The notes under the pieces are model-generated. The model had not been told where the DNA came from. It saw only the letters and a list, made by a program, of their open reading frames with translations, and did not search any database. From Sphingomonas bacterium (GTDB lineage Bacteria; Pseudomonadota; Alphaproteobacteria; Sphingomonadales; Sphingomonadaceae), in contig JASBRX010000036.1 of the NCBI GenBank assembly GCA_030149245.1, forward strand, positions 61,768-125,767: a DNA stretch of 64,000 nucleotides, read 5' to 3'. Both the position numbers and the translations under genes were made by a program. Positions 9,090-32,496 of this stretch are shown one piece after another; the stretch's first letter is position 1; each line of letters starts with the position of its first letter.

Positions 9090-9091
9090 AT

Positions 9092-11330: not shown

Positions 11331-14300
11331 CCGGCTTTGCCGAGCTGGTCGCGGCGTCGCATTTCTCGTTCCTGCGCGGGGCGTCGCACCCGGCGGACCT
11401 GATTGGGTGCGCGATCGAGCTTGGCCTGACCGGCATCGGCATTGCCGATCGCAACACGGTGGCAGGCGTCGTCCGCGCCCAGCTGGCACTGCGTCACGCG
11501 CGGACGGCGGCGCAGGACGCTGGCCTTCCACCGCCAGCATTGAAGTTCGTTCCCGGCGCGCGGCTGGTGTTTGTCGACGGCACGCCGGACATCGTTGCCT
11601 ATCCCGCCAACCGGCGCGGTTGGGGGCGGCTGACGCGCTTGCTGACGACCGGCAATCTGCGCGCGCAAAAGGGTGACTGCATCCTGCGGCTGGAGGATCT
11701 GATCGCGTTTCACGACGATCTGCTGCTGATCGTCCTGCCCGGGTCGAGCGCGGTGGCGCAGCGCGCGCATCGCGATCCGGTCGCGCATGACAGCGACGCG
11801 CCGGTCCCGCCGCTCGCGTTGGTCCAGCCTGCGGGGTTGCAACCGCTGTTGACCCGGCTCGCGCGGATCGCGCCGGGGCGGGTGTGGCTGGGCGCGTGCA
11901 TGGCGCGGCGTGGCGACGATGCGCGGCGGCTGGCGGCGTTGCAGGTGCTGGCGACGTCCGCGGGCGTGCCGCTGATCGCGACTGCGGATGTGCTCTATGC
12001 CACGCCGGATTGCCGCCCGCTCCACGACATATTGACCTGCATCCAGGCCGGGGTGACGATCACCCAGGCCGGGCGGCGGCTGGAGGCGAATGCCGAGCGG
12101 CATCTGAAATCGCCGGAGGAAATGGCACGGCTGTTCGCAACCTGCCCCGACGCGATCGCGCAAACCGGGGTGCTGCTCGACCGGATCGGCTTCGACCTCG
12201 ATCAGCTGCGCTACGACTATCCGCACGAACCGGTGCCACAGGGCTGGGACGCGCAGGACTGGCTGGAGCATATCGTGATCGAGGCGGCCAAAGCACGCTA
12301 CGGCGCGGACCTGCCGGACAAGGTCACCGCGTTGCTGGCCGAAGAATTCACGCTGATCCGCGCGCGCAACTATGCCTTTTACTTTCTGACCGTCCACGAT
12401 CTGGTGAAGTTCGCGCGTAGTCAGCAGCCGCCGATCCTGTGTCAAGGGCGCGGCAGCGCGGCCAATTCGATCGTGTGTTTTCTGTTGGGTGTCACCTCGG
12501 TCGATCCGACCGAATATGATCTGCTCTTCTCGCGCTTCGTGTCGGAGGAGCGCGACGAGCCGCCCGACATCGACGTCGATTTCGAACATGAACGGCGCGA
12601 GGAGGTGATCCAGTATATCTATCGCCGCTATGGTCGCCACCGCGCGGCCATCGCCGCCACGGTGATCCATTATCGCCCGCGCAGCGCGGTGCGCGAGGTC
12701 GGCAAGGCGCTGGGGCTGAGCGAGGATGTCACGGCGCGGATCGTGAGCACGGTGTGGGGCAGCTTCAGCCGCGACCTGCCCGACAAGCGGGTCAGCGAGG
12801 CGGGGTTCGACCCGGAAGCGCCCGAAATCCGCCGCCTGATCGACCTGGCCGGCCAATTGCTCGCCGCACCGTTCCCGCGCCATCTGTCCCAGCATGTCGG
12901 CGGCTTCGTGCTGACGCAGGACCGGCTGGATGAAACGGTGCCGCTGCACCATGGCGCGATGGAGGGGCGCACCTTCATCGAATGGGACAAGGACGATATC
13001 GACGCGCTGTCGATCATGAAGGTCGATGTGCTCGCGCTCGGCATGCTGACCTGTATCCGCAAGGCGTTCGACCTGATCCGTGCGCAGGGGGAGGGAGATC
13101 ACACGCTGGAGGTCGATCTCCAGTCCGAAGATCCCGCCGTCTATGCGATGCTCCAGCGCGGCGACAGCGTCGGGGTGTTTCAGGTCGAAAGTCGGGCGCA
13201 GATGAACATGCTCCCGCGCCTCAAACCCCGCAATCTCTATGACCTGACCGTGCAGGTCGCGATCGTGCGGCCCGGGCCGATCGAGGGGGATATGGTCCAC
13301 CCCTATCTGCGGCGGCGCTGCGGGGAGGAGCGGGCAGAGTTCCCCTCGCCCAAACCGCCGCATGATCCCGATGAGCTGCGCACCCTGCTCGGCAAAACCT
13401 ATGGCGTGCCGATCTTTCAGGAACAGGCGATGAAGCTGGCGATCGTCGCGGCGGGCTTCACCCCGTCGGAAGCGAACCAGCTGCGCCGGGCAATGGCCAC
13501 GTTCCGCAATGTCGGCACGATCGGGCTGTTCGAAGCGAAGATGATCGATGGCATGGTCGCCAAGGGCTATACGGCGGACTTCGCCCAGCGTTGCTACAAC
13601 CAGATCAAGGGGTTCGGCAGCTACGGCTTTCCCGAAAGCCATGCGCTGTCCTTCGCGCGGCTGGTCTATGTGTCGTCGTGGATCAAATGCCATCATCCGG
13701 CTGCCTTCGCCTGCGCCTTGCTCAATTCGCAGCCGATGGGCTTTTACGCCCCGGCGCAGATCGTGCGCGATGCGCGCGAACATGGGGTGGAGGTGCGCGC
13801 GATCGACGTGAACCACAGCGGCTGGGACAATAGCCTGGAGCGCGATGCGGCGGGGGCGTTGGCGCTGCGGCTGGGCTTGCGCCAGATCGACGGGTTTCGC
13901 GTCGATTGGGCCGATGCGCTGGTGGCGACGCGCGCGGCGGGGCGGTTCGACGCGATCGAGCCGCTGGCACGTCGCGCCGATCTGCCCGCGCGCGCGCTGC
14001 GGCTGCTGGCCGATGCCGATGCCTATGGATCGCTCGGCCTGTCGCGGCGCGATGCATTGTGGGAGGCGCGGCGCACCCCGTCGGGCGAGCTCCCGCTGTT
14101 CGCCGCCGCATGCGCGCGCGAGCTTGGGACCGAACCGGCGATCGACCTGCCCGCCATGCCGCAAAGTGAAGAAGTAGCGGCGGATTACCAGACGATCCGC
14201 CTGTCGCTGAAAGACCATCCGATGACCTTCCTGCGCCCAGTGTTGAAGGCGGAAGGGGTGCTGAGCTGCGCCGAAACCAGCGCGGCAAAAGCGGGGCGCC

Positions 14301-14665
14301 GCGTGCGTACCGGCGGTGTCGTGCTGATCCGCCAGCGCCCGGGCAAGGGCAATGCCATCTTCATCACGATCGAGGATGAGACCGGCGTGACCAACGTCCT
14401 GCTTTGGGCGCGCCTGTTTGAAATCAACCGCCGCGCCGTGATGAGCGCGCGCCTGATGGTGGTTGAGGGCGAAGTTCAGCGCAGCAAGGAGGGCGTAGTC
14501 CACCTGATGGCGTCGCGCGTGTTCGACCGGACCGACCTGCTCCGCACCCTCGCCGACGAAGCGCCGCAGCCAGCGCTGTGCCGCCCCGATGAAGTCGCGC
14601 GCCCGGTCCAGAGCCGCCATCCGCGCGACGTTCGGATACTGCCGCGATCACGCGATTTTCATTGA
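11327..14665 (+). CDS. dnaE2: error-prone DNA polymerase DnaE2
   Basis: PHP N-terminus FAELVAASHFSFLRGASHP, CQGRGSAANSIVCFLLG, PDIDVDFEHERREEVIQYIYRRYGR, C-terminus HPRDVRILPRSRDFH. Confidence 0.96.
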   Translation: MTGFAELVAASHFSFLRGASHPADLIGCAIELGLTGIGIADRNTVAGVVRAQLALRHARTAAQDAGLPPPALKFVPGARLVFVDGTPDIVAYPANRRGWGRLTRLLTTGNLRAQKGDCILRLEDLIAFHDDLLLIVLPGSSAVAQRAHRDPVAHDSDAPVPPLALVQPAGLQPLLTRLARIAPGRVWLGACMARRGDDARRLAALQVLATSAGVPLIATADVLYATPDCRPLHDILTCIQAGVTITQAGRRLEANAERHLKSPEEMARLFATCPDAIAQTGVLLDRIGFDLDQLRYDYPHEPVPQGWDAQDWLEHIVIEAAKARYGADLPDKVTALLAEEFTLIRARNYAFYFLTVHDLVKFARSQQPPILCQGRGSAANSIVCFLLGVTSVDPTEYDLLFSRFVSEERDEPPDIDVDFEHERREEVIQYIYRRYGRHRAAIAATVIHYRPRSAVREVGKALGLSEDVTARIVSTVWGSFSRDLPDKRVSEAGFDPEAPEIRRLIDLAGQLLAAPFPRHLSQHVGGFVLTQDRLDETVPLHHGAMEGRTFIEWDKDDIDALSIMKVDVLALGMLTCIRKAFDLIRAQGEGDHTLEVDLQSEDPAVYAMLQRGDSVGVFQVESRAQMNMLPRLKPRNLYDLTVQVAIVRPGPIEGDMVHPYLRRRCGEERAEFPSPKPPHDPDELRTLLGKTYGVPIFQEQAMKLAIVAAGFTPSEANQLRRAMATFRNVGTIGLFEAKMIDGMVAKGYTADFAQRCYNQIKGFGSYGFPESHALSFARLVYVSSWIKCHHPAAFACALLNSQPMGFYAPAQIVRDAREHGVEVRAIDVNHSGWDNSLERDAAGALALRLGLRQIDGFRVDWADALVATRAAGRFDAIEPLARRADLPARALRLLADADAYGSLGLSRRDALWEARRTPSGELPLFAAACARELGTEPAIDLPAMPQSEEVAADYQTIRLSLKDHPMTFLRPVLKAEGVLSCAETSAAKAGRRVRTGGVVLIRQRPGKGNAIFITIEDETGVTNVLLWARLFEINRRAVMSARLMVVEGEVQRSKEGVVHLMASRVFDRTDLLRTLADEAPQPALCRPDEVARPVQSRHPRDVRILPRSRDFH

Positions 14666-14765
14666 GATCAAGCTCACGCGCACGACGGAGAAAGAGAGGT
14701 TTCTCGATTTTCCTAAAGGATGGAGATCCCGTGGCAGCTCAAAATGGCACTATCTATTTGATTTA

Positions 14766-14996
14766 TTAGTAAAATACTGCAAACGCAGCATTGATTCCGT
14801 CCCAGATATCATCAGGCTTGTTGGATGTATCTGCGCCGTTTGAGACGATCCCAAAGACAGAAGCAGCGTTTCTGGCACCGTACAAAACCGCAGTCGCCGT
14901 GCGTTGCGCGGCGCTAAGTGACGTAAACTGCCGTTGCAGACCATCTGCATTAGCGAAACCCGCAAAGTTTCCGAACGGCTGCCCACTCTGCATCAT
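14766..14996 (-). CDS. hypothetical small protein (76 aa), low-GC island edge
   Basis: ORF MMQSGQPFGNFAGFANADGLQRQFTSLSAAQRTATAVLYGARNAASVFGIVSNGADTSNKPDDIWDGINAAFAVFY; no recognised family. Confidence 0.35.
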   Translation of the reverse strand: MMQSGQPFGNFAGFANADGLQRQFTSLSAAQRTATAVLYGARNAASVFGIVSNGADTSNKPDDIWDGINAAFAVFY

Positions 14997-15179
14997 TGCC
15001 CGACGCCTTTGCGCATTGATGGAAACTGTCACACGGCAAATTCGCAGCATAATAATGAAAGATGTTACTTGGTAGCAGGGTTGATTCTCTCCAATCTTGA
15101 TGATTCCCCTTACTAAAGAATATTTCCGTACAAACAGTTGAGTGCTACGCTTAGGCTGCAATATTGTGAGGTGATGGCC

Positions 15180-15998
15180 ATGGGTATCATTCCAAACTGC
15201 AAGGACCCGACGCTTTCCGCAATAAAGTCAAAGGGCTATAACGTTGTTCGCCTACCGCGGATCGATATGGCGCCGACTCAGTTGCTGGTCGCAAACGGCA
15301 AGACGCTGCAGCGGCTGGGCGACCTTCTCTCAGTTTTCGTGCCCGACCCGGATGGTCCGCCGCCGCCGCCCATCAGCGCCGACCGCCCGGGCCCCAATAT
15401 CCAGGGCACGAAGTCCGCTGATATCGGGCTCGACATCGGGCTCAATATCCTCGGAGGTCTGATCGCTGCGTTGGGTGGATCGCAAATCGGTGTTAATTTC
15501 GCATACAAGCAGGCGCGATCGGTGCAGTTCGAGTTTGGCTCGACGCTGGAAAACAGTACTCAGCTTGCCCAGATTGACGCGTTCCTCGCCTCCGCCAAGA
15601 TCAACAGCTTCGCGCGCGCGGTCGCGCAGATGCTGGAGGCGGATAAGGTGTTCGTCGTCACCAGCACGCTCAAGTCGGCGAACCTGACGGTGGCCGCCAA
15701 GGACAGCCAGAACCACTCGCTGGGGCTCGATATGCCGGTGATCCAGAATGCAATTGGCGGCAACCTGAAGGTCACCTCGGCCTCTTCAGACAATTCGGTG
15801 GTCACGTATCAGGGCTCGGTGCCACTGGTGTTCGGCTTCCAGACGGTGCAGCTGATCTTCGACAACGGCAAGTACCGCACGATGAAGCTGGTCGATGCGG
15901 GATCGCGGGTGGCAGAGGCTGGGGCCATCGGCGCGATCGAAGCGCCGGGCGGACCCGACGCACCGGCAATGCTGGAAACCGAGGCGATGCTGGCTTGA
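15180..15998 (+). CDS. probable bacterial gasdermin (bGSDM) pore-forming protein
   Basis: About 272 aa; MGIIPNC N-terminus with an early Cys; GYNVVRLPRIDMAPTQLLVANGKTLQRLGDLLSVF; hydrophobic Gly/Ala segment GLNILGGLIAALGG; FVVTSTLKSANLTV; VPLVFGFQTVQLIFDNGKYRTMKLVDAG; short C-terminal tail; protease genes directly downstream. Confidence 0.8.
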   Translation: MGIIPNCKDPTLSAIKSKGYNVVRLPRIDMAPTQLLVANGKTLQRLGDLLSVFVPDPDGPPPPPISADRPGPNIQGTKSADIGLDIGLNILGGLIAALGGSQIGVNFAYKQARSVQFEFGSTLENSTQLAQIDAFLASAKINSFARAVAQMLEADKVFVVTSTLKSANLTVAAKDSQNHSLGLDMPVIQNAIGGNLKVTSASSDNSVVTYQGSVPLVFGFQTVQLIFDNGKYRTMKLVDAGSRVAEAGAIGAIEAPGGPDAPAMLETEAMLA

Positions 15999-16045
15999 TG
16001 CATGGGCCGTGTGCCCAACGGCGCGCGGTTTCGGTGGGGGTGTGA

Positions 16046-17194
16046 ATGGGATTGTTCACCTTTGGCGAACTGAATGAAATCGTGCAGCGCGCGATCCAGG
16101 CAGGGCTCGCCGCACGCCGCGAAAGCCTGTTGTTCGCGTTCCCGCCCGGGTTTGTCGCAGCACTTTCCGGATGGGGGCAAAGCAATCCCGCCGATGCGCT
16201 GAGAGCTGATCTCGGGCAGCTCAACGACCTGGACCAGCCTGTCGGCGGTGAAATCCCGATGGTGATGTGGCTGGGCAACGCCCATTCGACCACTGCGGCG
16301 ACAAGGCCGGCGGACGCCAAATACTTCAACGCGAAGGCGCTCCTCGCCGCGGAGCGCGCCGCCGCGCAGAACGGGCCCGTTACACCGGCGCCGTCAGTCG
16401 CCGCCGCCCTGACGGCGCTGACCATTCCCCAACTCGTCCTGTTCCGCAACGATCTGCTGCCCGACAGCTTCTTCAAGCTGGCGGCCGAGCGCGCCCAATC
16501 GGTCGCGCGGCTGACGGTCTATGCGTATCAGGACGGCAACCAACGCCTCCTCCCTTCCGGCAATCCGGACGGGGTCTACGGCACGGCGTGGCTGATCGGC
16601 GCGAGGCATCTGATCACCAACTGGCATGTCGTCACGGCGCGGCAGGATGGCGAGGCGCCACCCGGTCAGGCCGACATCGATCTGCAGGTCGCCAATATGC
16701 GTATCGAGTTCGATCTTATCGCGCCCGGAGCGATGACCCATATGGCGCTTGCGGCGCGGCTGGCGCACGGCAATGCGGCGCTCGATTATGCCGTCATCGA
16801 ACTGACCCAGCCAGAACCGCGCAGCGTCTTCCCGCTCGCCTCCACACTGCCGACGATCAGTGGCACCGATCCGCTGGCCGCGAACATCATTCAGCATCCC
16901 GCAGGCGAGCCGCGCCAATATGGCATCCGCGACAATCTGGTAGCCGTGGTCCAGGGCGACGACCTTGCCTATTTCACCGATACCAAAGGTGGGTCATCCG
17001 GTTCGCCGGTGTGCGACGATCAGTGGCGCGCGCTGGCGCTCCACAAGGCGACGACCGCGCAGCTGGGGAACTTCACCTTCCAGGGCAAGCAGACGGCGTG
17101 GATCAACATCGGCACGGTCATGCCGGCGATCATGGCCGACCTGAAGACCAAACAGCCTGCGCTGTGGGCCGCCATCGGCGCGAAGGTGGTCTGA
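16046..17194 (+). CDS. EAD/death-like adaptor domain + trypsin-like serine protease
   Basis: N-term FGELNEIVQRAIQAGLAARRESLLFAFPPGF...LNDLDQPVGGEIPMVMWLGNA; protease triad contexts TNWHVV, LDYAVIEL, GGSSGSPV. Confidence 0.85.
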   Translation: MGLFTFGELNEIVQRAIQAGLAARRESLLFAFPPGFVAALSGWGQSNPADALRADLGQLNDLDQPVGGEIPMVMWLGNAHSTTAATRPADAKYFNAKALLAAERAAAQNGPVTPAPSVAAALTALTIPQLVLFRNDLLPDSFFKLAAERAQSVARLTVYAYQDGNQRLLPSGNPDGVYGTAWLIGARHLITNWHVVTARQDGEAPPGQADIDLQVANMRIEFDLIAPGAMTHMALAARLAHGNAALDYAVIELTQPEPRSVFPLASTLPTISGTDPLAANIIQHPAGEPRQYGIRDNLVAVVQGDDLAYFTDTKGGSSGSPVCDDQWRALALHKATTAQLGNFTFQGKQTAWINIGTVMPAIMADLKTKQPALWAAIGAKVV

Positions 17195-17198
17195 GGCG

Positions 17199-18530
17199 AT
17201 GACAAAGCTGCTCGATTTCAACGCGCTTACAACCCTTTGCGAACGGGCGATCGAGGCCGGACTTGCGCCACCTCCGCGTGATGCGCTTTTCCTGGGATTT
17301 GACGCGGCCGTCAAAGCTGCCACCTTTTCAGACGCCGCGCCGGGTGACGCCCTGAAGATCGAAATCGACCGCCTGAACGGCTATATCGATCCGATCGAAG
17401 GCGACATCTATTTCCTGGCAATGTGGCTGATCAACGCAGCGAACAAGGTCAACGCTACCCGGCCAGAGACTGCAGGATTTTTCCGAAACCTGGCGGACAG
17501 GGTCAATGCCATTCCCCGCCCGGCACCGGCAACGGGTGTAACCACCGCAGCGCTGATCCCGGGCGCACGCGCTGAAGCGCTGATCAACCCGGCCGTCGGC
17601 GCGGCCGTGCAGATCCTGCGTGGATCAATGCCGGGAATGAACCGCAGAGCTACCAATCTGATGGTGAGCAAGCGGATGCATGACGCTCTACATCATATCC
17701 AGCTTTATACGCTGCCAATGTGGTCCGCGAGCGTGGCGGCATTGTCGAGCAGTCCCGATTACGCCCGGCAGATGGTGGAGGACAAGCATCGGGAACTGAG
17801 AGATAAGAGCGAGGCTCTACCCGGTGAGTTCGGCTTTCTTTCGACCAATGAAACGCTGCGAGCTGTCGCACAGCAGACGACCGACGCCCTGCTCTCGGCC
17901 GCCGCCGCCGCCGACACGGCGCTTGCCGCGGGCGATGCGGACGGCCTGAAGTCCGTGATCGCAAAGGTTCGTGACATCGTAAAGGCGGCCATGCCGGTTT
18001 ATGCGGGCAAGATGGACAGTTACCAGGAAGGTCTCGATCTTTCTGAGCTGGTCGCAAGCCTTACCATCATCGCTCAAAATTCGTCCGACGACGCGCTGAA
18101 CGCGAACGCAAGCCGCCTCGCCAGTTCGCTGACGACAATCATCCAGGACCTTAGCGTCATCGGGACCCAGCACAGCGAATGGCAGCTGCTGGACATGCGC
18201 CTCGGCGCGCTCGAAAACTGGTTCGGTTTCCTGCATCTGGGGCCGAGCGTCTACGCCTCGTTCAACCTGGACTGGGACGCAGTCCATTCCGCCATTGAGA
18301 CCCTGTCGAGTCAGGGGCCAAGTGAACGCTTCGATCCAGTCAAGCGGCTGCGTGAAGCCTTTCTGCAAATTTGCCCTGTGCCCATCCAAGGCGCTCCTGA
18401 GAAAGAGGCGACGAAGGCGTTCGTCGACTTCGTGATCCAGGCGCGCACGGTGTTCTACGGGGTGGACGTCCGCATGAAGCAAATCTGCAACCAGCTGCGC
18501 GAAATGACCAATCTGCTGGCGCAATTGTAA
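17199..18530 (+). CDS. EAD/death-like adaptor domain protein with uncharacterised helical C-terminal region
   Basis: N-term FNALTTLCERAIEAGLAPPPRDALFLGFDAAV...LNGYIDPIEGDIYFLAMWLINAANKVNATRPE aligns with N-term of the adjacent protease; remainder unassigned. Confidence 0.7.
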   Translation: MTKLLDFNALTTLCERAIEAGLAPPPRDALFLGFDAAVKAATFSDAAPGDALKIEIDRLNGYIDPIEGDIYFLAMWLINAANKVNATRPETAGFFRNLADRVNAIPRPAPATGVTTAALIPGARAEALINPAVGAAVQILRGSMPGMNRRATNLMVSKRMHDALHHIQLYTLPMWSASVAALSSSPDYARQMVEDKHRELRDKSEALPGEFGFLSTNETLRAVAQQTTDALLSAAAAADTALAAGDADGLKSVIAKVRDIVKAAMPVYAGKMDSYQEGLDLSELVASLTIIAQNSSDDALNANASRLASSLTTIIQDLSVIGTQHSEWQLLDMRLGALENWFGFLHLGPSVYASFNLDWDAVHSAIETLSSQGPSERFDPVKRLREAFLQICPVPIQGAPEKEATKAFVDFVIQARTVFYGVDVRMKQICNQLREMTNLLAQL

Positions 18531-18540
18531 GGACCGCGAA

Positions 18541-20163
18541 ATGTACCGGGTTGCCTTCGAGGAAAATCAGGCTGAGCCATTCGCATCGCCGGTGGAGGGC
18601 GAGCAGGCGCATATCAAGCTGGTCGAGCGGGTACGCGAGATAGAGGCCGCGATCAGTACAGTCGATACACCGCCTGCCGGTGCGATCGACAGTCTCGCTC
18701 AACTGCGGGACGACATTGCCGTCTATGAGGCCCGGCTGGTCGCGTCTGGCGCCCATATGCCCGAAGGCAGCCGGCGCGATCTTTCCCAGAGCGTTTTGGA
18801 TTTTTGGGCGCTCCGCCAATCCGATCTTGCGGCGCTGGCGGCTCGCTATTCTCCGAACGAGCAGACAATGGTCCGGCAGGAGTTGCCCGCGGCCAAACTG
18901 CTTGCGCCCTATGATGAGGCAACTGCCGTCGCTGCCGCGGCCAAGGCCGAGGAATGCTATGTCGCGCTGCCCGACGATTCGGCGCGCGACGCGGCGCGCG
19001 GCGCCTTCCTCTCTCTCCTGCAGCGCAACGCTCCGCTCTCGCCCCCGGAAATCGCGGCGCTGGAGCCGTTCGCCGAGGCGGGTGTGCTCAGTCGATTGCC
19101 CACCGATGTGCTGGAGCCGGGCTATGATCTGGGGCACGAAGCACTTCCGCAGGCTTGGCAGAGGCTTGCCGAGTGGCAGCTCCAGGCGGCGAAGGTCCTT
19201 AGCGATCTGGATCGGGTACGAAGCAGCGCGCAGGCGTGGACGGAGACCAAGAGCTTCTCCGAATTGCCCCAGGGGCCGGCGGTCGATGTGGTCGCCAAGT
19301 TGGCCGAGCATGACGATTCGTTGAAGGAATATGCCGCTGCTGCCTACCGCCGCCGCACGCGCGCGCGCGCAATTGCGTGGGCAGCCGGGGTGATCTTCGC
19401 TGTTGCGCTTATTGGTGTCGGCACCTTAACTGTCCTCCTCACCTCGCGCCGGCCATCGCCCCCGGGCACGTCCATAGCGGCTGAATTCCAGGCCACGCAG
19501 AACGAGGCTTCGGAAGAGGTCATCGTCTCCGATCAGCCGCAGTCCGGCAAATCCGATACGGCGCAAGGTTCCACGGGCTGGATCTGGCTCGGTTCCACTG
19601 CGCTTCCGCAGGTGACGCTTGAAAACGGCACGCTGGCGGATCCGGCCGGCTTCAAGGGCGGGATGAAAGTGCGGACCCGCGCCAACCTCAAGATTCGTCA
19701 ACGCGGGCCAGAAGACAATGGCGAGAATATCGCCGGAGACCGGATCGGCCAGGTGTCGAGCGACGTGATCGTAGAATTGAAAAAGACGACGTCGGTGACG
19801 GTTGATGGCGTGGAGCAATATTGGGCCGAGGTACGGGTGATCCCGGTCGTGTATGTCCAGCGCTTCAGGGCAGCGGACCTGCGCATGGCCGAACTCCGGA
19901 AGGCGTTGGCGGACCGCGGCTTTCCGGCCCTGTACGAGCAGAAGCTCGACAGGATCGTGCAGGTCGACCCCGGACTGCCCTTCGACGTTCGCTACTATTA
20001 CGAGCAGGATAAGCAGGCGGCGAGCGAGGTGGCCGGCATCTTGCTACGCTGGCTTGGCAACGAACGCGTGCCGGTGGACAGAACCCTGTTCCCCCTGGTC
20101 GACACGCCAATCGCCGAACGGGTGAAAACCGGGACGATTGAAGTTTGGCTTTACCAGCGTTGA
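18541..20163 (+). CDS. membrane protein resembling the C-terminal tail of STAND NTPases (no NTPase domain) with SH3-like extra-membrane region
   Basis: GYDLGHEALPQAWQRLAEWQ resembles the HEALL-x-WPRL-xx-WL motif of nSTAND proteins; RRRTRARAIAWAAGVIFAVALIGVGTLTVLL TM; RTRANLKIRQRGP...IGQVSSDVIVEL SH3-like. Confidence 0.6.
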   Translation: MYRVAFEENQAEPFASPVEGEQAHIKLVERVREIEAAISTVDTPPAGAIDSLAQLRDDIAVYEARLVASGAHMPEGSRRDLSQSVLDFWALRQSDLAALAARYSPNEQTMVRQELPAAKLLAPYDEATAVAAAAKAEECYVALPDDSARDAARGAFLSLLQRNAPLSPPEIAALEPFAEAGVLSRLPTDVLEPGYDLGHEALPQAWQRLAEWQLQAAKVLSDLDRVRSSAQAWTETKSFSELPQGPAVDVVAKLAEHDDSLKEYAAAAYRRRTRARAIAWAAGVIFAVALIGVGTLTVLLTSRRPSPPGTSIAAEFQATQNEASEEVIVSDQPQSGKSDTAQGSTGWIWLGSTALPQVTLENGTLADPAGFKGGMKVRTRANLKIRQRGPEDNGENIAGDRIGQVSSDVIVELKKTTSVTVDGVEQYWAEVRVIPVVYVQRFRAADLRMAELRKALADRGFPALYEQKLDRIVQVDPGLPFDVRYYYEQDKQAASEVAGILLRWLGNERVPVDRTLFPLVDTPIAERVKTGTIEVWLYQR

Positions 20164-20191
20164 AGTAGCTGCCCCCGCGAGGAGGATCACG

Positions 20192-22960
20192 ATGGCCAAT
20201 GACAAGGGGCTGCCCGCCGCCCGCTTTGCCCGCACACTGCTAGCGAAGGCCGCGCCGGGCGGAGGGCACCGGACTGAGGCCGCGGGCCTGGCATCGGCGG
20301 GGGAACTGGCCGAGGCTGTGGGTCCTTCGGTGGAAGAGTTGGTCCCGAAGTCGGTACCCGAAGGCTTTTCACGCGATGAGGTGGAGGCGGTTGCGCGCAA
20401 GCTGCTCGTCACCGACGAGCTTAGCCCGCGCGAGACCTTCGTCACCGAGGCGATCATCATTCCCGACTTGCGCCCTGCGGTGTTCGTGACCGGCAACGAC
20501 TATGCGATCGATCACCCGGCATGGACCGACTATGTCGCGGGCACGCCCGCGCACGCCAATTTCTGCCGGGCGATTCCGTCGGTCGGGCGGATCGAACTGA
20601 TCGGGAATCCGAGCCTGCCGTTCGGAGGAACCGGCTTCGTCGTCGCGCGGGATCTGGTGATGACCAACCGCCACGTCGCATCGCTGTTCGCGGCCGGCAT
20701 TGGCGTGCGCAACCTGCGTTTTCAGGACCAGCTGGGTGCGGCGGTCGATTTCGTGCGCGAACATGGCCAATCGTCCGGCGGCACGCCGTTCGCGGTACGC
20801 GATATCGTGATGATCCACCCCTATTGGGATCTGGCGCTGCTGCGCGTTGAAGGCCTTGAAGATCGCGAGCCGTTGACGTTCGCGACCTATGAGCCGGATC
20901 CCGCCAAGCCGCGACGTATCGCCGTGATCGGCTATCCCGCGTTCGACCCGCGCAACGATGCCAGCGTACAGAATCAAGTGTTTCACGGCGTCTACAACGT
21001 CAAGCGGCTGCAGCCGGGCCTGTATAACGGGCGCCGCAAGATCGACAGCTATGGCAAGCTGGTCGATGCCGGGACCCATGACAGCTCCACACTGGCTGGC
21101 AATTCCGGTTCGGTAGTGGTCGAGGCCGACGGTGGCCAAGTCGTCGGGCTGCACTTTGCGGGGATCTACAAGGACAGCAACTTCGCGGTGCCGGCAGTCG
21201 ATCTGGCGCGCGATCCGCGGATGATCGACGCCGGCTTGAAGTTCGCGCCGGGAGCGGAAGCGAGCAGCGGGCCGTGGGACATCTTTTGGGCCGCAACATC
21301 GTCGGTCGGGAATGAATTCGGCACGGCGCAAAGAGGGCAGGCGGTGATGGCGGAACAAGGCAAGACCATAAGGCTGACGGTGCCGGTGGAAATCGAGCTT
21401 TCCATCGGCGTGACCGGTGCGAGCATTGCGGGCGCGACGGCGGCGGTGGGCGGTGGTGCGCTGACCGAGAAGATGGTCGAACCCTTCCACGATCCGATCG
21501 AGCTGCCGCGTGAGGGCTATGATCCCGGCTTCCTGGGCATCGCCGTGCCCATGCCCGTGCCGCGCCGCCCGAACGAATGCGCGCAGCTGGCCGATGGGTC
21601 GAACGAGCTGAAATATTATAACTTCTCGATCGTGATGAACGCTGGCCGGCGCTTGGCACTCTTCGCCGCGTCGAACGTGGATGCGCGGGCAGTGGCGAAG
21701 GAGCCGGAGCCCGGCCACAAATATACGCGTGCCGGCCTGAGCGGGCTGGACGAAGGCGATGTCGAGAAGTGGTTCACCGACCCGCGCATCCGCGGCATCG
21801 AGCAGCTGCCCGACCGTTTCTTCACCAAAGATCGCAAGGCGTTCGACAAGGGCCATATCGTCCGACGCGAGGATGTGGCGTGGGGCGGGAGCTTCTCCGA
21901 AGTGCGCCGTGCCAATGGTGATACCTATTTCGTCACCAATTGCTCGCCGCAGACCGCCGGGTTCAACCGTTCGAACCGGAAGGACAATTGGGGCGCGCTC
22001 GAGGATCTGGTGCTAAAGCAGGCAAAGGCCGAGAAATACTGCCTGTTCGCCGGGCCTGTGCTGCACGCGGCTGATCCCGAATTCACCGGGGTCGATGATT
22101 TCGGCGGCGTCAAGGTCCGTATTCCGCAGAAATATTGGAAGGTCGTTGTCGCGCGCGCCGGGAACGCGCTCAAGAGCTTCGCCTTCGTGCTCAATCAGGA
22201 CGTCTCGCAGACGCCGATGGAGTTCGCGGTGCCGGCGACCTGGCAGCGGCATATGGTCAGGCTATCGGACTTGCAGGCGGAGCTGGACAGCCTCGATTTC
22301 GCGCCGGAACTGATAGCGGCCGACCAGTATGACGCCGTGCGCGATGGCAGCGAAACCGCCGCGCTGGACTCGGTAATGGAGGCAATCATCGCGATGGCCC
22401 CGGCCGAAGTCGTGACGGAAGGACCTCCGCGCCAGCACGGCCGCTTCGTTGGCTTGCCGCTGCAAGTGGCATTCAACACCGATCAGGACGAGCGCCGCTC
22501 GGCCCAGCTGCTCTCGCCGCTAAGCTATTTCCAGCCCGACGAGTCCGAATGGCCGGTACCGGCGGATGCCAGACTTGATGGCGCCTCGATCCCCAGGCCG
22601 TTCTGGTCCGTGATTGGTGGGCCATTCGAGGGACTCTACCTCGAGGCTTCGGTGGTTCACGATTACTATTGCGACCATCATGTGCGCCCATGGCGCGACG
22701 TCCACCGGATGTTCTACGATGCGATGCTGTGCCGCGGGGTCGGCGGATTCTGGGCACGGATCATGTATTATGCGGTCTACCGCTTCGGGCCACGATGGGA
22801 GATGGTCGAGGGCCTAGGGTCGGTCGCCATCCCGGCCGAGGCCCTCACGGACGACAAGGCGCCGTCCATTCTGGCCGACGCGAAAATTCTGGTGCACGAT
22901 CTGCCGCGTGAAATGATCGAGGCACTTGCCGAAAAGAGCGCTGCGAAAGCGGGACGGTAG
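20192..22960 (+). CDS. trypsin-like protease + EndoG/NucA-type nonspecific nuclease + DUF1353 fusion
   Basis: Triad contexts MTNRHVASL, WDLALLRVE, LAGNSGSVVV; nuclease motif KAFDKGHIVRREDVAWG with FNRSNRKDNWGALED; C-term LDGASIPRPFWSVIGGPFEGLYLEASVVHDYYCDHH; RBS GGAGG at 20181. Confidence 0.85.
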   Translation: MANDKGLPAARFARTLLAKAAPGGGHRTEAAGLASAGELAEAVGPSVEELVPKSVPEGFSRDEVEAVARKLLVTDELSPRETFVTEAIIIPDLRPAVFVTGNDYAIDHPAWTDYVAGTPAHANFCRAIPSVGRIELIGNPSLPFGGTGFVVARDLVMTNRHVASLFAAGIGVRNLRFQDQLGAAVDFVREHGQSSGGTPFAVRDIVMIHPYWDLALLRVEGLEDREPLTFATYEPDPAKPRRIAVIGYPAFDPRNDASVQNQVFHGVYNVKRLQPGLYNGRRKIDSYGKLVDAGTHDSSTLAGNSGSVVVEADGGQVVGLHFAGIYKDSNFAVPAVDLARDPRMIDAGLKFAPGAEASSGPWDIFWAATSSVGNEFGTAQRGQAVMAEQGKTIRLTVPVEIELSIGVTGASIAGATAAVGGGALTEKMVEPFHDPIELPREGYDPGFLGIAVPMPVPRRPNECAQLADGSNELKYYNFSIVMNAGRRLALFAASNVDARAVAKEPEPGHKYTRAGLSGLDEGDVEKWFTDPRIRGIEQLPDRFFTKDRKAFDKGHIVRREDVAWGGSFSEVRRANGDTYFVTNCSPQTAGFNRSNRKDNWGALEDLVLKQAKAEKYCLFAGPVLHAADPEFTGVDDFGGVKVRIPQKYWKVVVARAGNALKSFAFVLNQDVSQTPMEFAVPATWQRHMVRLSDLQAELDSLDFAPELIAADQYDAVRDGSETAALDSVMEAIIAMAPAEVVTEGPPRQHGRFVGLPLQVAFNTDQDERRSAQLLSPLSYFQPDESEWPVPADARLDGASIPRPFWSVIGGPFEGLYLEASVVHDYYCDHHVRPWRDVHRMFYDAMLCRGVGGFWARIMYYAVYRFGPRWEMVEGLGSVAIPAEALTDDKAPSILADAKILVHDLPREMIEALAEKSAAKAGR

Positions 22961-23018
22961 GTGATCGCCGCAGCGAGTTCATCGGCTTGAAGGCGGTGAG
23001 CTACCCGTGCCGCTATAG

Positions 23019-23398
23019 ATGAGTAAATCCGCGAGGACCGCCGTCGGGGTCCGTTACCTCCTCGCCGTCGTCGACGACTTTGCATGCAAGAGTCTGGCGC
23101 TGGTGGTGGACACGTCACTGTTGGGCGCTGGTGTTGCGTACCAACCCGATGCGATCATCACGGTGCGTGGCCGGCCGCTGGTGATCGTCAGCGACAGCGG
23201 GATCGATCTGACGATCCTGGCGATCCTGCGCTGGGCGCAGGACCGGCAGATCGAGCGGCACTACATCGCGCCGGGCAAGCCACGGCAGAACGGCTACGTC
23301 GGGAGCGTCAATGATAGCTTGCACGTCAATCGCTGCGGGGCCGTTCCTTACCTCGTGAAAGAGCATCGAGTACGCCCCGACAAACGAGCATGACGACG
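23019..23398 (+). pseudogene. IS3-family transposase OrfB (rve) remnant
   Basis: YLLAVVDDFACKSLALVVDTSL...RPLVIVSDSGIDLT...HYIAPGKPRQNGYVGSVNDSL; catalytic Glu context (GFVESFNG) changed to GYVGSVND; truncated both ends. Confidence 0.8.
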
Positions 23399-23466
23399 TC
23401 ACATCGGGGACAATGAATCCGGGCAGGCTTCTCGACCGCGGTCGAGTCGCATGCGCGTGGTGTGTT

Positions 23467-24267
23467 TCATTTATCTTCCGCGTACAATTTGTTCAGGAGA
23501 TGATCGATCGCATATTGCCCGACTTCATTGAGCGTCCGCTCTTCGAATTCCTGGATCAGCTGTAGCGCCAGCACGAGTACCGAGGCGAGCACGAGTGCGA
23601 TGAAGGTGGTATTGAAAGCGAGGCTCAGGTCGCCGATCGTCACTTCGAGCATCTTCTGGAACTGTTCCGGATCCTGCGGATTCATGCCCTTCATTCCCGC
23701 CAGGCCGCGCGAGAGGCCCCAGACCGTGCCGATGAAGCCGACCGTCGGCAGCAGCCAGGTGAGGTAGCGCGAGAGATTGTAGCCGAGGTCGAGCTCGTGC
23801 TGCTGGAGTTCGAGCGTCGAATCCATGATCTCTGCGGCGAGCCCGATCGAACGCGTGCCCTGGAACTGCCAGATCACGCGGAGCAGCAGGCGCTGGAGAT
23901 AATGGTCCCGGCCGGTCGCCCGGATGCTGCGCGCGATCCCGGGCAGAGCGCGTGGATCGATCATCGCGTCGTCGCGCTCGGGGAGCAGGCTGCGGCCAAG
24001 CTGTTTCCGCTCCGCGCGCGCGTGCAGATAGCGCCCGGCAAGCTCGCCGCAACCGATGCCGAACACCAGCCATTCGAGGCAGCTGATCGTCACCGGGAAC
24101 GGCGGAACCGCCCCGTCTCGGTAGTCGAACAGGAGGATCGCGAGCCAGCTGCCCTTCGGCAACAGCGCGCCTGCAGCGACGATCGCGATGCCGAGCGCCA
24201 GGCCGCCGAGGCGAAAGAGAGTCTGCGTGGGCGGCTTTCGCTTTGCGGCTTCGATGTTGCTGCTCAT
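23467..24267 (-). CDS. MotA/TolQ/ExbB proton-channel family protein
   Basis: YLTWLLPTVGFIGTVWGLSRGLAGM ... VTIGDLSLAFNTTFIALVLASVLVL. Confidence 0.8.
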   Translation of the reverse strand: MSSNIEAAKRKPPTQTLFRLGGLALGIAIVAAGALLPKGSWLAILLFDYRDGAVPPFPVTISCLEWLVFGIGCGELAGRYLHARAERKQLGRSLLPERDDAMIDPRALPGIARSIRATGRDHYLQRLLLRVIWQFQGTRSIGLAAEIMDSTLELQQHELDLGYNLSRYLTWLLPTVGFIGTVWGLSRGLAGMKGMNPQDPEQFQKMLEVTIGDLSLAFNTTFIALVLASVLVLALQLIQEFEERTLNEVGQYAIDHLLNKLYAEDK

Positions 24268-24295
24268 CCTTCCCCCTTTTGACGTGCGGTGCGAG

Positions 24296-25111
24296 TCATT
24301 CAGCCATCGCGATCAGCAGCGAAAGCGCGAACGAGGAGCCGGGTGCGGGCACCTTGCCGTTCCCCCGCTGCGCGAGTTCGGAGTAGAAGCTCATGGTGGT
24401 GGCGGAGTCGCCCTCGACGAACGCCGAGAGGCGCGCGCCGCTGCCCCCCCACGCGGTCGCGAACGCGAAGGCCTGGGCGATCTCGTCGGCGCTGCGCGGG
24501 GGGTTGTCGCCGATCACGACGATGAAGCGGTTGTCCGGGTTCGCCTTCCAGTCGAGCCCGCGCGCCGCGATCAGACCGCCCAGGACCTGCTCCTCCGCTT
24601 CCTCGTTGGTGCACGGGACGCCGGCCTCGAGCGAGTTGGCGAACGACTGGAGCTGCTGGAGGCCATTCGCGTCGATCAGCGTGAGCGGCTGGACGCGGAC
24701 CGCCGCGCTGCCCATGCAATAGTCCTTATATTCGACGATCGCGATGCGCGCCTGGTCCGTCAGCTTGTTCAGGATCATTGAAAGGCTGCGTATCTCCTCC
24801 TTGAGGCGGCCGATGGGCTGCTGCATCGATGCGGTCGTGTCGATCACGATGGCGATGTCGGTCGCCCGCTGCTGCAGGCCGCGCTTGAGCTCTTCGATCG
24901 CGGCGTCGCGCTCGGTTTCGGCCTTGCTGAGCTGTTCCTTGAGCGTCTGGTTCTCGCGCTTGATCGCGGCGACCTCCTCCGCCTTGGGGCCTAGGTTCGG
25001 GGCGAACAGCGAGAAGAGGATCGCGAGGAACATGAACGCGCCCAGCGCGGAGCAGAACATGTCGAGCGCCGACATGCTGACGATATTGATTTCGCGCGAT
25101 CGGATCTTCAA
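24296..25111 (-). CDS. TolR/MotB-like membrane anchor + coiled coil + von Willebrand A-like domain
   Basis: EINIVSMSALDMFCSALGAFMFLAILF TM; DIAIVIDTTASMQQPIGRLKEEI MIDAS-like motif. Confidence 0.75.
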   Translation of the reverse strand: MKIRSREINIVSMSALDMFCSALGAFMFLAILFSLFAPNLGPKAEEVAAIKRENQTLKEQLSKAETERDAAIEELKRGLQQRATDIAIVIDTTASMQQPIGRLKEEIRSLSMILNKLTDQARIAIVEYKDYCMGSAAVRVQPLTLIDANGLQQLQSFANSLEAGVPCTNEEAEEQVLGGLIAARGLDWKANPDNRFIVVIGDNPPRSADEIAQAFAFATAWGGSGARLSAFVEGDSATTMSFYSELAQRGNGKVPAPGSSFALSLLIAMAE

Positions 25112-25695
25112 CGTACGCGATCCATCGCCACCGCCCGAGTCAGCTCGTATGGCAAGACGGCCTTGCGGGGATGGGACGCCGCGTCCGGCAGCAGGTCGAC
25201 GCCCGCCGCGCGCAAGACTCGCCAGGCAAGCTCCGTGCAGTAAATCCGCGAAGGCTCGCCGAGGTCGAAGGCGAAATCGTAAAGTAGTTTCCGGCCGCGC
25301 AGCGCCTCAACCGAGCGGCGCACGGCCCGGTCGAAACGCGCCCGCGCGTCTGCGCCGTGCCATCGCACGCGCATGACGCGATAGTCGCCGTTGCGGGCGA
25401 AGCGGATGAAGTCTTCGACTGGTTCGGTCTGCACGGCGCCGTGCGGCCCGCCGGGAAGCGCGTGCACCACCTGCCACGCGCCGCCGCTCCGGTAGATCAC
25501 CCCCACATGCGAATAGCCATTGCCGACGATGCTCAGCATGCGGGTCTCGATGCCGAACCCGGTCCGAAAGATTAGGTCCCCGTTCCGCAGCGCATTGGCA
25601 GGGAGCGCGCGCGCCGCAGGCGCGGAGTGGACGGCCGCGGTGGTGGTGAGGCCTGCGACGAGCGCGATGGCCATCAGCGGCACGAGCGGCCTCAT
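25108..25695 (-). CDS. YiiX/YebB-like (permuted NlpC/P60 papain-fold) hydrolase
   Basis: NGDLIFRTG...YSHVGVIYRSGGAWQVVHALPGG...IYCTELAWRVLRAAG; signal peptide. Confidence 0.75.
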   Translation of the reverse strand: MRPLVPLMAIALVAGLTTTAAVHSAPAARALPANALRNGDLIFRTGFGIETRMLSIVGNGYSHVGVIYRSGGAWQVVHALPGGPHGAVQTEPVEDFIRFARNGDYRVMRVRWHGADARARFDRAVRRSVEALRGRKLLYDFAFDLGEPSRIYCTELAWRVLRAAGVDLLPDAASHPRKAVLPYELTRAVAMDRVR

Positions 25696-26288
25696 GGGTG
25701 CATCCATCCCGGCATGCGCCGCAATATCGCCTGGCGCTTGGGGGCATGCCACAGCGCCCGGAACGCCTTCGCGGTCTCGATGATCGAGAACACATATATC
25801 AGCCATGCGGCGAGCACGAAGAAAGCGCCGACCACCCAGCCGAAGCCGCCCAGCGCATCGAGCCATCTGGAGAACTTCTCCATGTTGCTCAGCGTCTTGA
25901 AGCCGCCCATGAAGTGCGGGAGGATGAGATAGGCAAAGAAGAAGAACCAGCCGACTAGGGCAGGAAAGCCGGCGAGGAACAGCAGCCCGTGCCGACGCGT
26001 CCATCGCCGCGGCCTTTGCTCCATCAGGCCACAATAGGCGAGGAAGAACGGCATTCCGACAAGGAAGAAGAAGCCGGCGATCAATAGGCCCGTCGCCAGT
26101 ATCTCGAACATCATGCCGATCGCGCCGCCCCCCTCCCGGGGGTATGCTAGCATGCTGCCCTGGACGAACAGCGCGAGCGCGATGCCGGCATAGGACAGGA
26201 CGGTCAGCAGCCCCGCCAGCACGATCGCGACGATCCCGGGGATCCGGCCGGCAGGCGGCGTCGAAGGCGAATGCGTGGATGCCATCAT
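25692..26288 (-). CDS. multi-pass membrane protein of unknown function
   Basis: Several hydrophobic segments; overlaps flanking operon genes. Confidence 0.65.
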   Translation of the reverse strand: MMASTHSPSTPPAGRIPGIVAIVLAGLLTVLSYAGIALALFVQGSMLAYPREGGGAIGMMFEILATGLLIAGFFFLVGMPFFLAYCGLMEQRPRRWTRRHGLLFLAGFPALVGWFFFFAYLILPHFMGGFKTLSNMEKFSRWLDALGGFGWVVGAFFVLAAWLIYVFSIIETAKAFRALWHAPKRQAILRRMPGWMHP

Positions 26289-26303
26289 GCGATTCCGTTT
26301 CGT

Positions 26304-27956
26304 CTACATTGCGTTGTCGGCGGTCATCTCCGATGCGTCTAGCGCTTCCGCGCTCTCGCAGTTTATCGAAAGATAATAGACGCCGTTCTCGTAATAGGGT
26401 TCTAGAACTCGCCAGCTGACCTTGCCAAGTTCGGGGGCGGGGTACATATTTTCGCTGCCGTCCCCAAACCATCCATGGGTGGAGCCAAAGATTTTCCCAT
26501 AATAGTATAGGGGGGAGTTCGAGAAGAGAACCCGGCGAAATCTGCCGGAATCTAGGAAGGTCAGTGTGTTCTTTGTTGGTCCATTGAAGGTCCAATATTC
26601 GATCATTAGTTCGTTGTTTTCGTCGTACCAGCGGACCCAGACCTTGTGGGTCATCGAACAGCGGCTGTCGATGCCGAGCTGGCTCGCGATCACCGGGGGA
26701 GTTGCGACGTTACCCATCACATCCGCCGTCACGGAAGCATTATCAATAGCGGTGACGTTATCAGCGGCAGTTTCCAGCGCATCGGCCGTATTCTCGGTGC
26801 CGGCATCGTCCGTCGAAATCTGCTGAGCCGTTGGCCTGGCGAGGATGAGCAACACCATAATCACGACGAAGATCGCGATCGCGATGCTGAGACCGATGCC
26901 GGATCGATTCTTCGCGGGCGGTGGGGGCGGTGGGGGCGGCGGGGGCGGCGGGGGCGGTGGGGGGGGAGGCGGAGGCGGAGGCGAGGAAGGACGCGTCCTG
27001 CCCCGGGCACCGCCTGCCTCTTCCCCGATCGCTGCAAGCCAATCGCGCGCCGATTGGAACCGGGCAGATGGCTCGACCTCCAGCGCCCGATCGATGGCTT
27101 CGAGAAACGGCGCGGGACCTGCGACGCGTCCCGCCAGCGGCTCGTAGTTGGCTTTGCCGGTGAACCGAAGCAGGCCGTCGGGCGGCGCTCGCCCGGTTAG
27201 GGCATAATGGGCCACGCCGCCCAGGGCATAGATGTCGGTGGGCGGCCCCTGTTTCGGAAAATTGGGGCTCACATGGGTGTATTGCTCGTAGGGAGCATAG
27301 CCCTGAGTGAGGATCGCAGTGAGCGTGTTAGTGCGCTCGCCGATGACATGGCGCGCTGCGCCGAAGTCGATCAGCACGGGGCTGAGCGTTCCGTCGCGCA
27401 GCAGGATGTTACCGGGCTTGATGTCTCGGTGGATCAGCTGCGGTTCCGCCTCATGGAGCGCGACTAGGGCGTTGAGCAGGGGAATCAGGATCGGAGCCAA
27501 CGTCTCGGTGGTCAGCGGAGCGAAATGGCGCGTGTCGGTCGGCGAGCGCGGCGGCTCGCCGACGAACGCGCGCAGCGTCTTTCCCTCGATCAGTTCCATC
27601 ACCATATAGGCGGTGCCGTTCTGCTTGAAATAGTCGAGCACCTCGACGACGTTGGGGTGCGCGCTTCCGTGAGCCTGACGGTAATGGTCATGGAAGTCGG
27701 CGACGCGATCGGCCTCGTCGTTGAACTCCTCTAGGTTGAGGAGAAATATTCCGGCGGAATCGTCGTCGGAGGGTTGGACCGTGTCTTCGCCACGCGCGCG
27801 CTCGACTAGGTTGCGTGGGAACAGTTCCTTGATCGCGCGGACGCGGTCCGGAAACCTCACATGATGGGTACGATAGGTGATGCCGAACTGGCCCTGGCCA
27901 AGATGCCCGTCGATCTCATAGGCGCCGATCCGGTCCTTCGCCTTGAGCCGCGTCAT
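26304..27956 (-). CDS. membrane serine/threonine protein kinase with poly-Pro linker
   Basis: LGQGQFGITYRTH, AIKELFP, LIHRDIKPGNILL, DFGAARH; poly-Pro then TM segment. Confidence 0.92.
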   Translation of the reverse strand: MTRLKAKDRIGAYEIDGHLGQGQFGITYRTHHVRFPDRVRAIKELFPRNLVERARGEDTVQPSDDDSAGIFLLNLEEFNDEADRVADFHDHYRQAHGSAHPNVVEVLDYFKQNGTAYMVMELIEGKTLRAFVGEPPRSPTDTRHFAPLTTETLAPILIPLLNALVALHEAEPQLIHRDIKPGNILLRDGTLSPVLIDFGAARHVIGERTNTLTAILTQGYAPYEQYTHVSPNFPKQGPPTDIYALGGVAHYALTGRAPPDGLLRFTGKANYEPLAGRVAGPAPFLEAIDRALEVEPSARFQSARDWLAAIGEEAGGARGRTRPSSPPPPPPPPPPPPPPPPPPPPPPAKNRSGIGLSIAIAIFVVIMVLLILARPTAQQISTDDAGTENTADALETAADNVTAIDNASVTADVMGNVATPPVIASQLGIDSRCSMTHKVWVRWYDENNELMIEYWTFNGPTKNTLTFLDSGRFRRVLFSNSPLYYYGKIFGSTHGWFGDGSENMYPAPELGKVSWRVLEPYYENGVYYLSINCESAEALDASEMTADNAM

Positions 27957-29170
27957 TCGTTCTCTCCGGTTTGGCCTTCGGATTGATTCTCAGCCGGAGG
28001 GGGTGTTGTCTCCGCGGTGGGAGGCTGTGTCGAATTGCCGGTCGGATCGCCAGTTATGGGTTCCGTTCCGTCTGCTTGGACGTTGCCCGGAGCTGACACG
28101 TTACGGACCGACACACCCCCCTCCGCTTGACCCGCCTCCTCCTCCTCCTCTTGCTTCTCCGGCGGCGCGGGCACGGTTTGGTTGGCCACCGGGGGCGGCG
28201 GGGCGACTGTAGCGACGCCGTTGTCGGGCGCTGCGGTGGCATTCTCAGTGTCGTTGGGAAACAGGGCCGGGAACCACATGTCGCGAAGCTTGTCGTAGAA
28301 GAGCCAACCCGCCACCGCTGCGGCAACGAGGGCGAGCAGCATCACTCCGCCAAGAAGCCGCTTCCCGCGTCCGCCGCTATTGCGGGCGGCGGCTGCGTCG
28401 GTTCGACCCGGCTGCCATAGGCAAATCGTCGTGTTGTCCTGCCGGGGCCGATTTGCCCTGACTATGGCGTCGAGCATGGCGCGGCCCGCGGCTTCCGTGC
28501 TGGCGGCTGATCGCAGGATGCTCGTCATCTCGCCTTCGTCGAGTGTCTCAATGCCGTCGGTGGCCGCAATCAGCCAGTCGTCCGGCGCCAGCGCGAGCGG
28601 CGCGGAGGAAGCGTCGACGAGCTCCGGGACACCTTCGCCCAGCGCCGAGCGCAGCTGGTTCCGATGCGGATGGTTCTGCGCCTCCTCGGCGGTCATTTCG
28701 CCGCGCTCCGCCATCTCGGCGAACAGCGCGCGCATCGAGTGATCCTCGGACAGCCGAGTCAGCCGATTGTCCGCGAAGCGCCACAGGGGCGAATCGCCGA
28801 CGCTGATCCAGTGGAGCCCGTCGCTGCCTTTGGCGACCGCGATCAGGGTCGTTCCCATACCCTCCAGCGCCGGATCGGCGACGATCGCGTCGGAGATCGC
28901 GTGGCTCGCTTCTTCCAGCGCGGTGCGCAGCCGGTCGCGCGTGGTGCCCGTGGTCTGGCGCTCATAGCTTGCGACGAAGGTCCGCACGGCAATGCCGCTG
29001 GCGACATCGCCGCCAGCGTGCCCGCCCATCCCGTCGGCGACGACGACGAGGTTGGGCAGGGAGGTGCCCTTGCGCAGGCTGACTCCGTAGGAATCCTCCT
29101 GCCGTTTCCGAGCGCCGAGAATCTGACCGATGAAATATGGCGGTGGGGGAGGCCCGGTCCTTCGGGCCAT
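27953..29170 (-). CDS. PP2C-family protein phosphatase with C-terminal TM/low-complexity tail
   Basis: VVADGMGGHAGGDVAS, WISVGDSPLW, ATDGIETL. Confidence 0.92.
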   Translation of the reverse strand: MARRTGPPPPPYFIGQILGARKRQEDSYGVSLRKGTSLPNLVVVADGMGGHAGGDVASGIAVRTFVASYERQTTGTTRDRLRTALEEASHAISDAIVADPALEGMGTTLIAVAKGSDGLHWISVGDSPLWRFADNRLTRLSEDHSMRALFAEMAERGEMTAEEAQNHPHRNQLRSALGEGVPELVDASSAPLALAPDDWLIAATDGIETLDEGEMTSILRSAASTEAAGRAMLDAIVRANRPRQDNTTICLWQPGRTDAAAARNSGGRGKRLLGGVMLLALVAAAVAGWLFYDKLRDMWFPALFPNDTENATAAPDNGVATVAPPPPVANQTVPAPPEKQEEEEEAGQAEGGVSVRNVSAPGNVQADGTEPITGDPTGNSTQPPTAETTPPPAENQSEGQTGENE

Positions 29171-29736: not shown

Positions 29737-29791
29737 GATTCCCCCTCATGTTCAGTTGCAAACTCATCTGTCTGGTCGTGATTCGTCAATA

Positions 29792-31093: not shown

Positions 31094-31094
31094 G

Positions 31095-32488: not shown

Positions 32489-32496
32489 GCTTCCTC

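Follow-up and report, generated by a model that had tools for sequence, protein, structure and literature searches.

A candidate glutamyl-endopeptidase zymogen fused to a nuclease and a DUF1353 domain in a bacterial gasdermin operon

Introduction

In a protein that joins a trypsin-like protease, an EndoG-like nuclease and a DUF1353 domain, which part acts as the switch and which as the killer? This question is raised by a gene at positions 20192–22960 (+ strand) of the window, as we call the whole 64,000-nucleotide stretch of a Sphingomonas bacterium contig analyzed here. A preliminary description had read the product as a toxin-like fusion in which limited proteolysis activates or releases the nuclease during cell death. 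The analysis below partly supports that reading but re-centers the mechanism on the protease as a proposed gasdermin switch, with the nuclease and DUF1353 as exchangeable tails.

Domain architecture and selection

The gene encodes 922 amino acids in a single uninterrupted frame, with an AGGAGG ribosome-binding site upstream of the ATG at 20192 and a stop codon ending at 22960. Pfam matches above the curated cut-offs place Trypsin_2 at aa 146–320 (E = 2e-17), Endonuclease_NS at aa 469–690 (E = 3.5e-29) and DUF1353 at aa 772–862 (E = 9e-20). The catalytic motifs are found at the expected places: NRHVA, DLALL and GNSGS supply H161, D213 and S305 of the protease, while DKGH, GFNRSN and GALED supply H555, N592 and E604 of the nuclease. 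All six residues are invariant across 13 homologues (alignment A1), and the presence of the three domains in one polypeptide, as first described, is thereby confirmed. The term ‘toxin-like’, which suggests export, finds no support, as no transmembrane segment was detected in the 922-aa protein and its N terminus, judged by eye, is unlike a signal peptide. The full-length AlphaFold model is of moderate quality, with a mean pLDDT of 62.9.

For the operon as a whole, the nearest relative is that of Porphyrobacter (locus L024, genome searched as G220; 71% identical). Between the two proteins, dN/dS was lowest in the nuclease (0.125), followed by DUF1353 (0.205), the protease (0.27) and the segment that precedes the protease (0.42). 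The values of the three domains mark a maintained gene rather than a chance reading frame and indicate that all three are under purifying selection. Full-length matches to the protein were present in 2 of the 296 genomes sampled in the order, and no plasmid or phage record covered 80% of the protein. Apart from the window, the trypsin–NucA–DUF1353 architecture was found only in the Porphyrobacter relative.

A candidate V8-type zymogen

The protease module (aa 87–360; 20450–21271, + strand) was assigned by profile and VIA comparison as a V8-type, predicted glutamyl endopeptidase. The best PDB match of its profile is a glutamyl endopeptidase (E = 6.6e-8), and its AlphaFold model, with a VIA Z of 19.9 to pro-Esp, fits the solved V8/Esp proteases, pointing to a chymotrypsin fold with a His/Asp/Ser triad as in V8-type glutamyl endopeptidases. 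Thr/Ser190 and His213 are common to glutamyl endopeptidases (PMC5508998). Their equivalents in the window protein, T300 (five residues before S305) and H321, align to Esp in the profile match, are invariant in alignment A4 and are the predicted specificity residues.

In V8, BIGEP and Esp, removal of the propeptide creates a new N-terminal amino group that completes the S1 pocket (PMC5508998). The window protein begins with a poorly conserved pro-segment (aa 1–86; 20192–20449, + strand), in which the alignment columns are variable up to E86. From there, E86-A87-I88 and R94-P95 are invariant in alignment A1. The predicted zymogen activation site, E86|A87 (TEAIIIPDLRP; 20447–20452, + strand), keeps its Glu in all trypsin-module relatives seen, even distant ones at 35–38% identity, and a pro-site of the form E|[AS][IL] was present in every relative seen, across five named phyla. 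The E|A motif is missing from the EAD5-protease of the same operon and from other neighboring proteases. The module thus resembles a glutamyl-endopeptidase zymogen of the V8 type, whose Glu specificity and activation we infer; a cut after E86 is its predicted activating step.

Nuclease domain and exchange of tails

The protease is followed by an EndoG/NucA-type nuclease (aa 441–720; 21512–22351, + strand), assigned by Pfam, profile and VIA. Its profile aligns to EndoG in the PDB (E = 2.5e-9), and the nuclease part of the AlphaFold model gives a VIA Z of 19.6 to CPS-6 EndoG, with Z scores of about 19 for EndoG/Serratia nuclease. As read from the sequence, the DRGH-type motif with its catalytic His, the metal-binding Asn and a Glu correspond to the EndoG/NucA (Endonuclease_NS) signature. 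Matches to autotaxin in the fold search are due to the nuclease-like domain of autotaxin and are no pointer to lysophospholipase activity.

Protease modules 43–68% identical to that of the window were collected from 22 relatives in Pseudomonadota, Planctomycetota, Myxococcota, Acidobacteriota and Rokuibacteriota. Behind them stand NucA alone, NucA with S8, NucA with S41, S8, Lipase_3, alpha/beta hydrolase, endonuclease I or an AAA/SMC-type ATPase. The most frequent tail is NucA, and two relatives, L016 and L021, carry lipase-like tails on the same head. The NucA–DUF1353 tail occurs only in the window and the Porphyrobacter relative, which are sisters in the protease tree (support 100/100). Tail swaps were left uncounted because many deeper branches of that tree are weakly supported. 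The comparison argues for a conserved protease head on which different effector modules have replaced one another as tails over evolutionary time. Such a head with exchangeable nucleases, proteases, lipases and DUF1353 across phyla would amount to a simple modular logic for bacterial cell-death systems.

These data bear on the reading in which the nuclease is the main killer, released or activated by the protease through limited proteolysis, which we consider possible but rather doubtful. The nuclease residues are invariant, its dN/dS is the lowest of the protein and NucA is the commonest tail; a proteolytic cascade deploying NucA was proposed by Kaur et al. in 2020 for NucA–trypsin fusions (PMC7159879), and protease-activated pro-nucleases exist elsewhere, with MBL nucleases (PMC12799240). 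However, in Caulobacter LypC (Banks et al. 2026), the one relative studied experimentally, lysis requires the protease Ser but not the nuclease His/Asn, so that nuclease mutants still lyse (PMC13236601). Moreover, L016, L017 and L021 lack any nuclease, and no clear self-cleavage site was found between the domains. Proteolytic release of the nuclease, as proposed in the preliminary description, is plausible, but the E86 pro-site and the gasdermin E|A described below favor the protease as an activator of gasdermin. An EAII repeat in linker 2, between the nuclease and DUF1353 (aa 730), was also considered as a self-cleavage site and was discarded, because shuffled versions of the protein contain motifs of this kind at a chance rate of 0.43 per shuffle.

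A gasdermin operon and a predicted substrate

The gene is the last of a five-gene operon on the + strand. The first gene (15174–15998) encodes a bacterial gasdermin (bGSDM) of 274 aa from the ATG at 15174 (PADLOC bGSDM, E = 1.5e-76; NCBIfam prok_gasdermin, 211.8 bits with a cut-off of 100), and the co-occurrence with bGSDM that the preliminary description had suggested surveying is therefore found in the operon itself. It is followed by an EAD5-V8-type protease of 382 aa (16046–17194; Pfam EAD5, E = 3.5e-12 and Trypsin_2, E = 3.9e-14; motifs NWHVV, LDYAV, GSSGS and LALHK), a candidate initiator protease on which a Pfam sequence search detected EAD5 and no CARD. The third gene (17199–18530; 443 aa) encodes an EAD5-like domain joined to a helical protein; it has no Pfam match, and at its N terminus it shares 38% identity with the EAD5 encoded by the second gene (E = 3e-15). 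The fourth (18541–20163; 540 aa) encodes a protein with a single transmembrane segment at aa 282–300, identified by hydropathy and also present in the L024, L006 and L011 relatives; its C-terminal part is probably periplasmic. This protein has a weak nSTAND1 match, just at the cut-off, that covers the profile's C-terminal third. That match excepted, no ATPase domain was found in the operon, and no P-loop was found in the five operon proteins or in any open reading frame of at least 100 aa within 14600–23500. The operons of relatives often encode a long ATPase protein (L002, L003, L014, L017, L021 and L073, several of these matches being below the curated cut-off), so in the window the same executioner appears to be coupled to another kind of control unit.

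The Solibacteraceae operon of L021 (6458–17393) comprises a gasdermin, a caspase-like protein, a protease–alpha/beta hydrolase fusion, two P-loop ATPase proteins and an EAD5-protease. In the window, a DNA polymerase III alpha-type gene (11327–14665, + strand) lies just upstream of the operon and perhaps marks the insertion point of an island, and an integrase-core (rve) transposase fragment (23019–23393, + strand) lies directly downstream. Beside the operon, a cluster on the − strand (23467–32704) encodes a MotA/ExbB-type channel protein, a vWA protein, a Ser/Thr kinase, a PP2C phosphatase, an FHA protein, a trypsin–FHA fusion and a protein with a microbial ribonuclease domain (PF00545), and looks like a second signaling/conflict cluster.

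A predicted activating cut, E248|A249 (DAGSRVAE|AGA; 15915–15920, + strand), lies in the C-terminal tail of the gasdermin. The E|A is found seven residues past a conserved Asp in the gasdermins of the window (DAGSRVAE|A), L070 (DAGSIALE|AAL) and L077 (DGGGVVAE|AVA), three gasdermins from the same bacterial family that each stand beside such a V8-type protease. The L021 gasdermin has E|L one residue later, and E|A is absent from the L078 gasdermin, which has no such protease as a neighbor. Four of the seven Glu of the window gasdermin fall within its last 30 residues (P = 0.003). This pattern agrees with a Glu-specific enzyme that would cut the gasdermin after E248, although common descent could explain the shared E|A, as the gasdermins are few and three of them are about 58–60% identical to each other or closer. 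The way in which bacterial gasdermins are cut by proteases of their own is known for few systems, and the sequences here give the exact, testable predictions E86|A87 and E248|A249. At the L078 locus (7264–10682), the gasdermin is divergent and is followed by a 798-aa protein whose N-terminal part resembles an alpha/beta hydrolase; no V8-type protease was found there.

On balance, we lean slightly toward a reading in which the 922-aa protein, with its own nuclease attached, is cytosolic and serves as the Glu-specific executioner protease of an operon for gasdermin-based abortive infection. A cut after the invariant E86, by the protein itself or by the EAD5-protease, would free the N terminus at A87 and complete the S1 pocket; the active protease would then cut the bGSDM tail after E248, leading to a membrane pore. 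We infer that the EndoG-like tail would destroy DNA/RNA and that the trigger would arrive through EAD5–EAD5 contacts between the third protein and the EAD5-protease, together with the membrane-spanning fourth protein, these three standing in for the NLR ATPase of CARD-NLR operons. Underlying this proposal are features seen at the level of sequence, namely the domain content, the conservation of the active sites, the motif at the pro-site, the operon, the exchange of tails and purifying selection, and the essential protease Ser of LypC is in its favor. Against it, LypC works with an NLR partner and no gasdermin (PMC13236601), the gasdermins behind the shared E|A are few and related, and the full-length model is only of moderate quality. 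A further counterpoint is L024, which keeps the control genes of the operon although no gasdermin is detectable in its genome. The gasdermin can therefore not be the sole purpose of the 922-aa protein and, as seen from L024, appears to be an add-on that was gained or lost.

The operon could instead serve a host lysis program, such as gene-transfer-agent release or development, and not phage defense. Caulobacter LypABC, which has the same protease–nuclease architecture, controls lysis for gene-transfer-agent release (PMC13236601). However, the distribution is patchy, with 2 out of 396 genomes from the order encoding a bGSDM and full-length matches to the fusion protein similarly rare, which fits a mobile defense system better than a conserved program, and an integrase remnant lies just downstream. 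We therefore regard a host program as improbable.

The DUF1353 tail

The C-terminal domain (aa 772–862; 22505–22777, + strand), assigned by Pfam, alignments and PHROG 1158 (E = 3.6e-24), is a His-variant of DUF1353. The DUF1353 protein TtaP acts as a phospholipase A2 and has a His70/Asp85 dyad (PMC11525133). The window domain keeps H823-D824 but has H838 at the position of the catalytic Asp85, at the same ungapped spacing of 15, and a His occupies this position in every variant member examined, whether bacterial, fused (L045 and L051) or phage. With the catalytic Asp replaced, phospholipase A2 activity by plain transfer from TtaP was rejected, and a lipase activity of the tail is unproven. The fusion partners of DUF1353 named in the TtaP study include endonuclease and protease domains (PMC11525133), so such fusions had been seen before.

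Because the DUF1353 part of the full-length model is poor (pLDDT under 50), the domain was folded alone. The resulting model has a mean pLDDT of 76.6; its fold matches are viral DUF1353 models only, and a PDB fold search with it gave no match, a result compatible with a phospholipase A2 fold. A TtaP-like phospholipase A2 effector that joins the gasdermin in damaging the membrane would accord with the activity of TtaP, with the lipase-like tails on the same head in L016 and L021 and with the occurrence of the same DUF1353 variant beside a gasdermin in L070. The His at the D85 position required in TtaP and the absence of a phospholipase A2 fold match speak against it, although that absence is itself compatible with such a fold, and we judge this role quite improbable.

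The His-variant is common in phages as a stand-alone protein (13 viral loci plus phage records) and falls in PHROG 1158, labeled ‘tail assembly chaperone’. One example is a gene of Vibrio phage pv27 (L065, 4968–5378), located between baseplate and nucleotide-metabolism genes and annotated likewise. In one bacterial genome, the variant is fused to an unrelated trypsin (L051, 244–1971) and to a PDZ domain (L045, 1243–2280). The L070 locus (5537–9111) is a compact set of three genes, in which a gasdermin and a V8-type protease accompany a DUF1353 protein that has a weak metallopeptidase-like region, so the window is not alone in linking DUF1353 to a gasdermin system. A Fisher test of whether DUF1353 and bGSDM occur together in the family gave P = 0.0008 with the window and 0.03 once it was left out, and is for that reason taken as supportive only.

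The tail may alternatively be a captured phage protein that serves as bait or sensor, with phage infection engaging it and so releasing the protease. The many stand-alone phage copies and the presence of the variant in unrelated bacterial peptidase-type proteins (L051, L045 and L070) are in line with this idea. Most tails of the protease are enzymes, however, which fit effectors better, and the phage function is an annotation label; we find a bait very unlikely. A full combination, in which a DUF1353 bait and the Glu zymogen lead to a gasdermin pore and nucleic-acid destruction, would unite sensor, switch and killer in one protein without an NLR ATPase, but we judge it slightly less likely still. 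Should the variant prove active or a phage bait, a function would follow for a large phage protein family.

Comparison with known systems

The window protease resembles the V8/Esp-type glutamyl endopeptidases (PMC5508998) in fold, triad, Thr190/His213 equivalents and the N terminus expected from propeptide removal. It differs in being apparently intracellular, in residing inside a multidomain effector and in having an invariant Glu as P1 of the pro-site. The DUF1353 domain and its HD motif are shared with TtaP (PMC11525133), whereas the His at the catalytic Asp position and the placement as a C-terminal tail set the window protein apart. Like LypC, it combines an N-terminal trypsin-like peptidase with a C-terminal NucA-type endonuclease and is encoded beside another trypsin-like protein; LypABC differs by its NLR ATPase LypB, its CARD protease LypA and the lack of a gasdermin, and LypC has no DUF1353 (PMC13236601).

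The NucA–trypsin fusions of Kaur et al., termed ‘System 3’ and mostly from alphaproteobacteria, likewise come with another trypsin in the operon that carries an EAD (PMC7159879). The window operon differs from them by EAD5 instead of EAD1, the lack of a STAND NTPase, the gasdermin and DUF1353 as a third domain. DUF1353 is absent from the published text of that study, and gasdermin from its System 3 section (PMC7159879). The EAD1 that marks the trypsin paralogue in a subset of System 3 was not found in the window operon, where Pfam identifies the adaptor as EAD5.

In the Lysobacter CARD-NLR gasdermin systems of Wein et al. 2025, a protease of the operon that bears an adaptor domain reportedly activates the gasdermin. 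A gasdermin effector and an adaptor-bearing protease in one operon are common to those systems and the window, but here there is no NLR-like ATPase and no CARD was detected, an EAD5 adaptor and a one-TM protein being present instead. In the literature searched, which did not include Wein et al. 2025, presumably the paper likeliest to contain overlapping data, there was no gasdermin operon with a trypsin–nuclease–DUF1353 protein, no zymogen or Glu-specificity prediction and no DUF1353 His-variant. What appears to be new here is the conserved protease with exchanged tails, its reading as a Glu zymogen, the E|A shared among gasdermins and the His-variant of DUF1353.
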